DNA of 64,000 bases, from IMG/VR virus record IMGVR_UViG_3300018080_005856, positions 1-64,000 of that record; one strand, written 5' to 3'. Below, in pieces: positions 49,014-52,614 of the stretch. The translations under genes were made by a program, and so were the position numbers. The DNA comes from a virus. How positions within the stretch are numbered: the stretch's first letter is position 1; the number at the start of each line of letters is the position of its first letter. The notes beneath the pieces are model-generated. The model was not told the DNA's origin, searched no databases, and saw nothing but the letters and a program-made list of their open reading frames with translations.

Positions 49014-51458
49014 TTAGCCAAGTAACCTCTCCGCATAGAGGCATGCCATACCATTCATACCTCTTACGTTGGAAACCTCCTTTCTCTCTACGAGTGCTTG
49101 CACGAACACCGCATATAGAACGATAGCCCTTTCGATCTTAGATACATCGAGTGTATCTATTATCTCTGGGTTATCATGGAGTTGTTTCCTGGTAGTTCCG
49201 ACAATCTTCTCAAGAAGAGTATCCACAACTACCATGTGGACATGAGCCATAGGCTTATGAGCTAACGCCCACATCTGCAGCATGACCTCTCTTTCTTCGG
49301 CGGAGATCAAAGGCTTAGCCGCTTTAATGTTGTCAGCACGAAACTCGCCAGCAACATCAAAGATCTTGTCGGTATCAAGCTCTACTCTATACACCTGACG
49401 TATAGCCTGAGCGAAGGATTCTGCAGTTCCTTCTCTCCAGCCGACAAGTTTACCACTGATGACAGTAGCGGTAGGGGACTCCCTGTCACCAATGAGAAGT
49501 TTACCAAGAACTGTGTCACACAGTTCATAGGCTTCATTGACCCCAACAGATAGGCCAACATACTTCTTAATCCCTTGGACACTGTCCTGGATAGACTGTG
49601 CCAGAGGTAGAAGATCACTCATAGCAGATTCTAAAGCATCTGACCGGAAATCATAGACAGTAGCCAGACATTTCATGTAAGCCGCTACAAGTATAGCTGT
49701 TCTCTCTTGACACCACCTGCCATGCATACAGGCTGTCCAGGGAGTAAGCTCACCTTCAGCAGGTACCGATGATTTATCTATCATTCCGAAATCATCAGTA
49801 GCCCGCACCATGCTTCTATACCCCGGGAGGAATAGAGCATGATCATCACAGTCAGACTGCCAACCAACTGTGGCTTCCAAACACACTACAGCCACGACTC
49901 CATCTACATCATCCAAGGTATGCTCAGATAGACGTAGATCTAAGAAGGAGCCCTTTGTAGTATTTGGATACCTGACCCCAGCAACAAAGTCAGATATTTC
50001 TCCAGTCCGAATAGTAAACTGAGTAAATCCAGACTGAAGTGCATCCCGCATTTCACGAGATGGTACAAACTCCCCAGGAAGAAGCTTGTGAACGTGACCA
50101 CCATCCACAACCACATGAGTCCTGTGTATTATTGCTGCATATACAGAACTCGGGGCATTGGCACTCATAAGAGCCTTAGACCTCTTATTAAGTCCCATTA
50201 TGACTCCCGGATCGTTTGCAGGAAGATATCCAAGAACATACTTAGACAGATAGCTATCTATAAGTACATCCTCTTCATCATTGGATAGACCCATATCCAA
50301 GTGACGATACATGGATCCCCTGAGATCATTCAGAGCTGCAGTCTTACCAAATGCCTCTTTACGGAGAAGAGCCATGATATCTTTCCGTGTGACCTTATCC
50401 CACTGTCCAAGAACCATATAGAACAGGTTCAGGCGATAAGCCTCCTTCTGTTCATGGTTCTCAATCTTGGACAGCCCGATAGTCATGTCGAGAACTACGG
50501 AGTCTTTCCCGGCATAATCTACCTTTATCCATTTGATAGCCGAGTCATAACACCAACCATCAAACTCCTCTGGAATAGGCTTTCCATCTGGTCCTATAGA
50601 AGCCTGTGCTGGGGAGTGGAGCAGCCTCCCCTTCACTATTCCAGTCTTTCCATCCATAGGAACAAGACCTCTTACAAGACCAAAGTCCCCGGATTGTAGG
50701 ATACTTGCTCTGCGGACTAAGATCACACCATCCGCATCCAGAGTATTACCTACTTCAGAAAGCTCCTCTGGGAATACCTTTATCTTGAGCTGATCAGGCA
50801 TTCCGAGGATCTCAGACCAACCGTCTTTACCCGCCCTTATGCGAAGGACGTTGACCTCTTGATCTGATACGTTGCCACACGCTTCACGGATAACGTCAGC
50901 AAACATGTCCCTATTCACCGAAACTATTCCATTCAGAATGGTTTCAGCTCTCCTGGAGGATATCCAGGAAGGATGTGCCGGGAATGCTACACCCTTAACA
51001 CCTGTCATCTTGAGGGCATACTCAAAGAGTCTACCTCTCAGAAAGGTGCTACATGAAATCAGGTTGAGATTAAAGCGCTCCTTTCCCTTCTGATTCCGGT
51101 TCCTTTTAGCTATCTGTTGACCGTTGTACTTTAAGCCAGCACAATAGCTACGGCCTGCACGAGATCTCCGCATATCCCTTGCGAGCTCGACACCGAGGAC
51201 TTCTGCCAGTGCTGCAGCTGTAAATGTCTTAGTAACATCTACAGCCACCTGACGAAGCTCTCTTTTCCTGAAGGCCTTAAATGCCTTAAAGACATAAGAC
51301 CCAGGGAGGACGATCTGATTCTTTATATACGGTGATACAAAGAACCTGTCCCCGTTCCAAACAAGCGTCTTTCCAGGCAATGGCCTGAAGTCAGCTTGCT
51401 CAGATGCCCGGAGAGATGACCCTCCGAGTAACAACTTAAGTAACCCATGATTATCCAT
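49014..51458 (-). CDS. large 814-residue protein of unknown function
   Basis: The largest gene of the middle of the window, in the early-like run; ATG behind CAGGAGG. The N-terminal third is basic (RRSRAGRSYCAGLKYNGQQI). The middle has DADGVILVRRASILQSGDFG. A later WQSDCDDHALFLPG distantly recalls the DxDGD metal motif of two-barrel RNA polymerases, with His in the last place. Start and end are alpha-helical. I cannot place it in a family; an RNA-polymerase-like or nucleic-acid enzyme is only a hypothesis. A three-way-junction leader precedes it. Confidence 0.75.
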   Translation of the reverse strand: MDNHGLLKLLLGGSSLRASEQADFRPLPGKTLVWNGDRFFVSPYIKNQIVLPGSYVFKAFKAFRKRELRQVAVDVTKTFTAAALAEVLGVELARDMRRSRAGRSYCAGLKYNGQQIAKRNRNQKGKERFNLNLISCSTFLRGRLFEYALKMTGVKGVAFPAHPSWISSRRAETILNGIVSVNRDMFADVIREACGNVSDQEVNVLRIRAGKDGWSEILGMPDQLKIKVFPEELSEVGNTLDADGVILVRRASILQSGDFGLVRGLVPMDGKTGIVKGRLLHSPAQASIGPDGKPIPEEFDGWCYDSAIKWIKVDYAGKDSVVLDMTIGLSKIENHEQKEAYRLNLFYMVLGQWDKVTRKDIMALLRKEAFGKTAALNDLRGSMYRHLDMGLSNDEEDVLIDSYLSKYVLGYLPANDPGVIMGLNKRSKALMSANAPSSVYAAIIHRTHVVVDGGHVHKLLPGEFVPSREMRDALQSGFTQFTIRTGEISDFVAGVRYPNTTKGSFLDLRLSEHTLDDVDGVVAVVCLEATVGWQSDCDDHALFLPGYRSMVRATDDFGMIDKSSVPAEGELTPWTACMHGRWCQERTAILVAAYMKCLATVYDFRSDALESAMSDLLPLAQSIQDSVQGIKKYVGLSVGVNEAYELCDTVLGKLLIGDRESPTATVISGKLVGWREGTAESFAQAIRQVYRVELDTDKIFDVAGEFRADNIKAAKPLISAEEREVMLQMWALAHKPMAHVHMVVVDTLLEKIVGTTRKQLHDNPEIIDTLDVSKIERAIVLYAVFVQALVERKEVSNVRGMNGMACLYAERLLG

Positions 51459-51725: not shown

Positions 51726-52034
51726 TTACTTCCACTCAGACAGGGGTGGCCCCTCCAGAGCGAGGTGTTCCCCCATCATATCTCTGGCATCATCCAGCAA
51801 CTGATCAAGATCAATCACTGGTTTGCCTACTTCCGCCTTAAGCTCGGTAGGAATATCAGCTACAGCCATGATGTGATTCCATGACTGTAAGAACTGTTCT
51901 GCCTCCTTCTTACTTAAGGCCTTCCCACTATACGCTTCAATAAGCAGCATAGTGTCCTTCACTGCAGTGGTTACCTGCTCCATCCTTCTCTTCATCCTTC
52001 TTGTGACTTCTTGTAACTCTATTGCCTTTGACAT
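51726..52034 (-). CDS. unknown 102-residue helical protein
   Basis: Helical: EVTRRMKRRMEQVTTAVKDT, then SKKEAEQFLQSWNHIM and an acidic second half. ATG behind CAGGAGGTAC; the first hammerhead ribozyme ends right before that ribosome site. Function unknown. Confidence 0.75.
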   Translation of the reverse strand: MSKAIELQEVTRRMKRRMEQVTTAVKDTMLLIEAYSGKALSKKEAEQFLQSWNHIMAVADIPTELKAEVGKPVIDLDQLLDDARDMMGEHLALEGPPLSEWK

Positions 52035-52050
52035 AGAGTACCTCCTGTGA

Positions 52051-52129
52051 TATGTTTCGGATCCCGCTACAGATCCTCATCAGTGGGCTTAAGCTACCCA
52101 TACATAGGGACAGTTTTACATCATGTCCC
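52051..52129 (-). ncRNA. type-III hammerhead ribozyme 1 with upstream hairpin
   Basis: Read on the minus strand: hairpin GGGACA-UGAUGUAAAAC-UGUCCC (52107-52129), then stem III UAUGU, cleavage nucleotide A (52101), stem I UGGG...CCCA, core CUGAUGA, stem II GGAUC...GAUCC, core GAA and stem III return ACAUA (52051-52055). All invariant core nucleotides are present (CUGANGA, GAAA, GUH). Cleavage is expected between 52101 and 52100. It lies between two cistrons, directly before a ribosome binding site. Confidence 0.88.
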
Positions 52130-52141
52130 AGGATGTAATGC

Positions 52142-52330
52142 TTAACGATATTGAGATAGATCTATACCTTTAACATTAAACCTACCAAATACTGCTTCAC
52201 GCTCAGCATTAACAGCCTTAAGCTTTCTTAAAGCCATCTGCACCTTTGCAGCGTGATACGGGTGAGCCTTGCAGAATTCAGCTATCTGCTCTGGGCTCAT
52301 TTCGAGTAAAGTTTTAACTAGTTCGACCAT
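52142..52330 (-). CDS. unknown 62-residue helical protein
   Basis: MVELVKTLLEMSPEQIAEFC, then a helix of mixed charge (KVQMALRKLKAVNAEREAVF) and a short tail ending DLSQYR. ATG behind TAGGAGG; ribozyme 2 ends just before it and ribozyme 1 begins after its stop. Function unknown. Confidence 0.75.
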   Translation of the reverse strand: MVELVKTLLEMSPEQIAEFCKAHPYHAAKVQMALRKLKAVNAEREAVFGRFNVKGIDLSQYR

Positions 52331-52347
52331 AATGGACCTCCTATAGT

Positions 52348-52427
52348 AGTGTTTCGGCTCTTGCTTAGGGAGCCATCTTCAGTGGGCTTAAAGCTACCCA
52401 GACACCGGGTAGTTTTACATCATACCC
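52348..52427 (-). ncRNA. type-III hammerhead ribozyme 2 with upstream hairpin
   Basis: Same plan as ribozyme 1: hairpin GGGUA-UGAUGUAAAAC-UACCC (52407-52427), stem III GGUGU, cleavage nucleotide C (52401, GUC), stem I UGGG...CCCA, core CUGAAGA, one extra U, stem II GGCUC...GAGCC, GAA and stem III return ACACU (52348-52352). Position 7 of the core is free, so CUGAAGA is allowed. The extra U before stem II could lower activity. Stems differ from ribozyme 1 by compensatory changes. Confidence 0.8.
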
Positions 52428-52440
52428 AGGATGCTTGAGC

Positions 52441-52614
52441 TTACTTCTGTGTAGATACGCACTGGCCAGTAACTTTGTTGCAGACTACTTTGCCTTTGAA
52501 AGCATCACTAATCTGCTTGTCCTGCCTTGCTGCCAAAACTACAAACAGAGCCAAGAAAGCTACTGTAGCTACACCAACCATAAACTCTCCAAACTTCTCT
52601 TTTCTTGTATTCAT
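52441..52614 (-). CDS. 57-residue membrane protein, first gene of the leftward run
   Basis: ATG at 52614 behind TAGGAG. A basic N-terminus MNTRKEKFGE, one span (FMVGVATVAFLALFVVLAA), then a soluble tail with two Cys (VVCNKVTGQCVS). As the first cistron next to the divergent junction it is probably made early; a host-membrane takeover role is possible. Ribozyme 2 follows its stop. Confidence 0.75.
   Translation of the reverse strand: MNTRKEKFGEFMVGVATVAFLALFVVLAARQDKQISDAFKGKVVCNKVTGQCVSTQK

Follow-up and report, generated by a model that had tools for sequence, protein, structure and literature searches.

Pseudoknot-hammerhead modules between phage genes as candidate devices for splitting polycistronic mRNA and capping its new 3' ends

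Clusters of type I to III hammerhead ribozymes flank single prophage genes and have been proposed to act in mRNA processing, and hammerhead tandems were shown to cleave both in vitro and in E. coli (Perreault et al. 2011, PMC3088659). What hammerheads do in bacteria and phages has elsewhere been called an open question (PMC6155905). The locus described here resembles those clusters in having hammerheads placed between phage genes, where they are proposed to split long transcripts. It lies in a stretch of 64,000 nucleotides, henceforth the window, which constitutes positions 1 to 64,000 of the 150,487-bp IMG/VR virus record IMGVR_UViG_3300018080_005856. A preliminary description of this DNA reported two type III hammerheads on the minus strand and read them as devices dividing the mRNA gene by gene. 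We recover both at the places it gave, with the core, the three stems, the Rfam model RF00008 and a structural descriptor in agreement; the conserved module is, however, longer than it claimed, as it overlooked an H-type pseudoknot adjoining each hammerhead (52107-52136 and 52407-52434). We posit, with a probability of roughly 0.68, that the two elements form a composite module, in which self-cleavage by the hammerhead would split a polycistronic mRNA and the pseudoknot would cap the new 3' end. The features of the locus, in their order on the minus strand, are:

52441..52614, minus strand: upstream cistron A, 57 aa, from the ORF call, with a hydrophobic N-terminal stretch
52407..52434, minus strand: pseudoknot copy 2, GCAUC-CU-GGGUA-U-GAUGU-AAAAC-UACCC, 6 nt past the cistron A stop codon
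52348..52406, minus strand: type III hammerhead copy 2 (RF00008 and descriptor), GUC triplet, predicted cleavage after C52401
52328..52342, minus strand: Shine-Dalgarno AGGAGG and start codon of cistron B, from the sequence
52142..52330, minus strand: cistron B, 62 aa, from the ORF call, with one module on each side
52107..52136, minus strand: pseudoknot copy 1, ACAUC-CU-GGGACA-U-GAUGU-AAAAC-UGUCCC, 5 nt past the cistron B stop codon
52051..52106, minus strand: type III hammerhead copy 1 (RF00008 and descriptor), GUA triplet, predicted cleavage after A52101
52032..52046, minus strand: Shine-Dalgarno AGGAGG and start codon of cistron C, from the sequence
51726..52034, minus strand: cistron C, 102 aa, from the ORF call

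By both sequence and position, each hammerhead follows a stop codon and stands just before a Shine-Dalgarno sequence and start codon, as had been stated. Cistron A had no match in Pfam, cistron B no family match in PHROGs and Pfam, and cistron C no confident family match in the same two collections. The same gene cluster codes for an 814-aa protein (window 49014-51458), for which PHROGs, Pfam, IMG/VR patterns and a phage collection all gave no match. The terminase and this 814-aa neighbor, used as IMG/VR probes, retrieved no homologous phage, and the phage collection contained no DNA-level match to the record and only distant terminases. As the phage has no close relatives in these collections, the evolution of the window module can be traced only through its two copies.

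Copy 1 (52106-52051) reads UAUGUA and, past the predicted cut, UGGGUAGCUUAAGCCCA-CUGAUGA-GGAUC..GAUCC-GAAACAUA, with the core CUGAUGA/GAAA and the triplet GUA at 52103-52101. Copy 2 (52406-52348) reads GGUGUC and, past the predicted cut, UGGGUAGCUUUAAGCCCA-CUGAAGA-u-GGCUC..GAGCC-GAAACACU, with the core CUGAAGA/GAAA and the triplet GUC at 52403-52401. The descriptor identifies in both the CUGANGA ... GAAA core of the type III hammerhead; both triplets, which the sequence bears out as previously read, are of the GUH form with the U16.1-A15.1 and G16.2-C15.2 pairs; and in both, RF00008 and the descriptor have loops closing stems I and II while stem III is open. All the core nucleotides are present, as had been noted, but the earlier account missed a single additional U that immediately follows the CUGAAGA box of copy 2 and sets A9 apart from stem II, owing to which the core junction of this copy is not perfectly canonical. 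Similarly, the compensatory differences that it reported between the copies in stems II and III are genuine, but the one in stem III, which is 5 bp long in each copy, contains a G-U wobble in copy 2 (GGUGU/ACACU). The extra U (window 52382-52370) recurs in four other loci, and 14 of 148 non-redundant phage hammerheads have one extra base between A9 and stem II.

A search with the RF00008 covariance model, which had been suggested as a check, yields significant E-values for copy 1 (31.7 bits; E of 8e-5 in a 701-nt search and 4.2e-6 in the whole record) and copy 2 (23.5 bits; 0.018 and 9e-4), and this type III family is the sole convincing Rfam match for either. Both scores nevertheless lie under its curated gathering cut-off of 48.5 bits, a detection threshold and not a defining trait of type III hammerheads, and because of this a default Rfam scan reports two tRNAs only. 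The core pattern by itself is weak evidence, since it occurs 15 times in the window against 4.6 expected. Adding stems I, II and III leaves just the two reported hammerheads, and the resulting descriptor has exactly two matches in the 150,487-bp record and none in 20 shuffled genomes. Nested minimum-free-energy folding of 103-nt stretches, with a program that cannot draw pseudoknots, gave other folds and did not return the hammerhead. A pairing between the loops of stems I and II can be drawn as a candidate contact in each copy (GCU/AGC in copy 1, GCUU/AAGC in copy 2). We reject the idea that a pseudoknot of loops I and II is common to these ribozymes, as such pairing was seen in 13 of 145 surveyed hammerheads against 8.5 in shuffled sequence, i.e., not above chance.

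The two hammerheads point in the same direction and lie 300 nt apart, an arrangement that might excise and circularize a 300-nt RNA with cistron B in the manner of retrozymes and viroid-like RNAs. This strikes us as exceedingly improbable: a stem III formed across the copies (UAUGU with ACACU) is predicted at +0.2 kcal/mol, against -1.6 and -3.5 kcal/mol for the proper, isolated stem III duplexes; the record, which may be incomplete, has no RtcB or RNA_ligase family match; and no circular products of other tandems were found by Perreault et al. 2011 (PMC3088659).

Evidence bearing on the proposed capping of a cleaved 3' end comes from the second element of the module. The H-type pseudoknots (52136-52107 and 52434-52407) lie 5-6 nt past the stop codons, and the 3' strand of their second stem, S2, ends at 52107 and 52407, with the hammerhead stem III starting at 52106 and 52406, leaving a gap of 0 nt. 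An alignment of the two modules displays a compensatory change in S2 (GGGACA/UGUCCC versus GGGUA/UACCC) with identical loops; as S2 is altered on both strands and the loops are kept, the crossing helix is supported. No Rfam 15 family covers the window pseudoknot, and a search for the GP20-b RNA (RF03003) found no match at E <= 10 in 51900-52600. We discarded an intrinsic terminator in the window, as there is no U run and the hammerhead stem III comes directly after, and likewise a stop-codon readthrough or frameshift pseudoknot, as readthrough extensions have a median of ~7 codons and -1 frame extensions are mostly short.

The window pseudoknots belong to a family with the formula S1-CU-S2-N-S1'-(N)2AAAC-S2'. 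A first, general pseudoknot descriptor, with ~25 chance matches per genome strand, was too loose to be used alone and was hence replaced by one in which L1 is CU and L3 ends in AAAC. This form finds 174 copies in ~7 Mb, both strands included, whereas an equal amount of shuffled sequence gives 3; since part of those ~7 Mb was retrieved with the pattern itself, the clean tests are half-fixed pairing and alignment covariation. An IMG/VR scan with CATCCT-N4to8-TGATGTAAAAC gave at least 120 matches, and 91 of the 120 listed could form S2, which the pattern does not demand. When the pattern fixes just one half of the sequence and leaves the pairing strand free, S2 is fully paired in 51 of 60 viral cases (shuffled mean 22.6, maximum 31) and S1 in 81 of 88 (shuffled mean 15.4, maximum 25), the two tests comprising 18 and 23 different stems, respectively; these cases are non-redundant by k-mer overlap, not by phylogeny. 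In a gapless alignment of 58 sequences, 97.3% of the cells are paired versus 74.2% when shuffled, the covariation is 0.606 versus 0.163, and seven of nine pairs show double-sided changes; sliding the alignment by one lowers the pairing to 25-27%. The covariation in both stems is overwhelming, and the family is an H-type pseudoknot with two crossing helices. Three contigs were seen to carry several pseudoknots, each behind a gene of its own, and these differ in their S1 stems. Bacterial genomes gave only one match to the strict CATCCT form. None of the Rfam 15 families covers the pseudoknot at the loci tested, and the only overlap is a partial one with GP20-b in Lactobacillus phage AQ113.

The loops are the best-conserved part of the family and the stems vary freely, a pattern that would also suit a regulator whose CU and AAAC loops bind a ligand or protein and thereby gate cleavage or translation, comparable to preQ1-I, with its tiny pseudoknot, or to the operator of T4 gene 32. 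We consider such a regulator quite improbable, given that an Rfam riboswitch match is absent, that the pseudoknot sits after genes and not before one gene type, and that a generic H-type pseudoknot also needs an A-rich L3 and a short L1.

The placement of the family was examined in 116 non-redundant copies. The pseudoknot starts 3-16 nt past the stop codon of a same-strand ORF in 62 of these copies, as compared to 3.8% of random positions and six copies for the opposite strand, and 10% lie within ORFs of at least 100 aa versus 55% of random positions. A tRNA follows within 120 nt in 16 copies, mostly at 3-13 nt. Five or more U within 25 nt were found for just 19 of the 116, on account of which we reject an intrinsic terminator as the identity of the family. 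Independent annotation agrees with this placement in Mycobacterium phage Labelle, cyanophage S-RIM4, Nostoc phage NMeng1 and Lactobacillus phage AQ113, and in Arthrobacter phage Molivia a tRNA-Gly begins 3 nt past the pseudoknot. In the annotated phage sequence L387 the CDS ends at 596 and the pseudoknot lies at 601, and in L388 (601-632) the pseudoknot runs to 629 and tRNA-Gly starts at 632. A weaker likeness, with a short S1 or one mismatch, is seen in Paracoccus phage ParMal1 and Synechococcus phage S-EIV1.

In seven loci, L388 among them, the pseudoknot was observed a few nt 5' of tRNA genes (Asp, Leu, Gly, Tyr), which suggests a position before RNase P sites. The crAss-like phage cr7_1 (L393:601-635) has a pseudoknot within the spacer of what appears to be a permuted tmRNA; as read from the alignment, ~4 nt separate it from the mature 5' end of the tmRNA coding half. 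It is one of the pseudoknots that lie far from any stop codon. Most family members have neither a hammerhead nor a tRNA behind them, so that the capping of processed ends cannot be their sole setting. At somewhat under even odds, we propose that this widespread, largely uncatalogued 27-36-nt phage pseudoknot generally protects mRNA 3' ends and is placed directly before whatever makes the end, be it a hammerhead, a U run or, in the case of a tRNA, its RNase P site; the window would then represent the form in which the cap and a self-cutting ribozyme are fused into one module.

The pseudoknot is positioned no less tightly with respect to the stop codon than to the downstream processing site, and hammerheads and tRNAs alike need ribosome-free RNA for folding. 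Hence, the hammerhead cleavage might be real with the pseudoknot acting as a translational insulator that prevents ribosomes at the stop codon from continuing into the hammerhead or tRNA or initiating there anew. This appears unlikely to us, as the 0-nt adjoining of stem III in both window copies and most tandem loci is tighter than a ribosome barrier needs, plain hairpins substitute for the pseudoknot at the same adjoining place, and some pseudoknots are far from stop codons, the one in the apparent permuted tmRNA included.

These substituting hairpins, which the proposed capping of a cleaved 3' end would accommodate, emerged from pattern scans of IMG/VR that provided two independent non-redundant sets of type III hammerheads (n=76, and n=72 held out); the patterns fix parts of stem I and the core, and the proportions therefore hold for those subsets and not for all phage hammerheads. 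The 3' strand of a hairpin adjoins stem III in 37 of the 76 (shuffled mean 11.6, maximum 22) and in 54 of the 72 held-out cases (shuffles 7-18), with the distance profile peaking at 0-1 nt. A Shine-Dalgarno sequence and start codon lie no more than 70 nt downstream in 66/76 and 54/72, mostly 10-30 nt away, and in the second set an upstream ORF stops within 200 nt in 68/72, mostly within 35 nt. These counts indicate that a stop codon, an adjoining structure, a hammerhead and a ribosome-binding site constitute a general phage layout, of which the window displays the pseudoknot variant. Sequence, structure and position thus uphold the earlier gene-by-gene reading, the same layout being present in more than 100 non-redundant phage loci. 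In six individually noted loci, and others, the adjoining element is GC-rich, often with a UUCG-type loop, and from its sequence appears to be the hairpin version of the same putative cap. The scan pattern further picked up sequences resembling type I hammerheads, in which stem I is open, in three other viral contigs.

A further scan for tandems fixed AAACTGCT and the hammerhead core and left the 5' half of the pseudoknot free, and this unselected half was recovered: only four of 33 stretches were without a pseudoknot, and those four had no evident hammerhead stems by eye. Together with the earlier scans, it gives at least 20 non-redundant loci with a pseudoknot and a full type III fold, two with variant or weak pseudoknots being counted within the 20. 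In 15 of these loci the gap between the two elements is -2 to 1 nt, negative values denoting stem III pairing that extends into S2. One locus (L408) has two pseudoknot-hammerhead modules, as in the window, and another tandem relative (L416), with 49.8 bits, passes the RF00008 gathering cut-off.

The tandem loci also bear on whether the pseudoknot is a co-transcriptional folding guide, which would hold UACCC/UGUCCC away from stem I (GGGUAG) for the ribozyme to fold and cut fast. In copy 2, nested folding yields a rival 6-bp hairpin, CUACCC/GGGUAG, which would block the pseudoknot and stem I alike and which the pseudoknot could prevent. However, S2 in the other tandem loci is mostly GAGCA/UGCUC, unrelated to stem I, and the pseudoknot is mostly found without a hammerhead, which renders such a guide very improbable.

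Returning to cleavage with capping, the structures of the modules, their positions, covariation, exact adjoining and recurrence are observed, and we propose the following course of events for the order stop codon, H-type pseudoknot, type III hammerhead and Shine-Dalgarno sequence. Once a polycistronic early transcript extends past a module, the hammerhead would cut 6 nt 3' of the pseudoknot, after A52101 or C52401, the self-cleavage and the chemistry of the ends being those expected by analogy with the hammerhead family. The upstream cistron would then end in a compact pseudoknot whose 6-nt tail carries a 2',3'-cyclic phosphate, and the downstream cistron would begin with a 5'-OH and a structured leader ahead of its ribosome-binding site. 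After the cut, little stability is predicted for stem III (-1.6 and -3.5 kcal/mol), so that the products should come apart. With two modules, cistron B would be released as its own message, and cistrons A and C would be parted from it. To judge by its placement, the pseudoknot, like the hairpin that other phages have instead, may protect the upstream 3' end and make it a poor substrate for 3'-to-5' exonucleases. PNPase requires a 3'-OH (PMC3014915). As hammerhead cleavage leaves none, a 6-nt tail with a cyclic phosphate could not feed this enzyme. RNase II and RNase R, too, would be expected to be impeded where so short a tail projects from a stable fold. The protective-looking structure 5' of the cut and the ribosome-binding site 3' of it make the mRNA-processing idea specific and testable. 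Beyond hammerheads, the compact pseudoknot lies behind genes of phages annotated for Mycobacterium, Arthrobacter, Synechococcus, Nostoc and Lactobacillus hosts; it might account for the marking or protection of 3' ends in phages where terminators are not used.

In comparison with described RNAs, the window hammerheads share with RF00008 (Hammerhead_3) the core, the three stems, the open stem III and the GUH triplet, and differ from it in scoring under its gathering cut-off and in the inserted U of copy 2. The RF03003 consensus of GP20-b is a hairpin followed by a second hairpin, with no pseudoknot, and it had no match in the window. In Lactobacillus phage AQ113 (L392:598-667), GP20-b matches at 26.2 bits, under the cut-off, and its 5' hairpin, the loop of which contains AAAA, coincides in part with a pseudoknot of the family; GP20-b may be better modelled as a pseudoknot. 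The gene 32 mRNA pseudoknot of T4/T2 is likewise small, H-type and in a phage mRNA, but is an autoregulatory operator upstream of its own gene (PMC3014915), whereas the window family follows the stops of unrelated genes. The HDV-like theta ribozymes by gut-phage tRNAs (PMC10879173) are similarly small self-cleaving ribozymes for phage RNA processing, but are of another class and act on tRNAs. Our survey of the literature, which covered mainly open-access journals and is not proof, yielded no account of the pseudoknot or of a cap beside phage hammerheads. Within the accessible portion of Perreault et al. 2011 (PMC3088659), the pseudoknots are loop I-stem II contacts inside the ribozyme, in contrast to the upstream H-type pseudoknot here, and no cap is described such as the 3'-end structure that adjoins the window ribozymes. 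Thus, hammerhead clusters in phages and the processing idea were already known, the cap and its generality appear to be new, and the pseudoknot is the more novel part of the module than the hammerheads.
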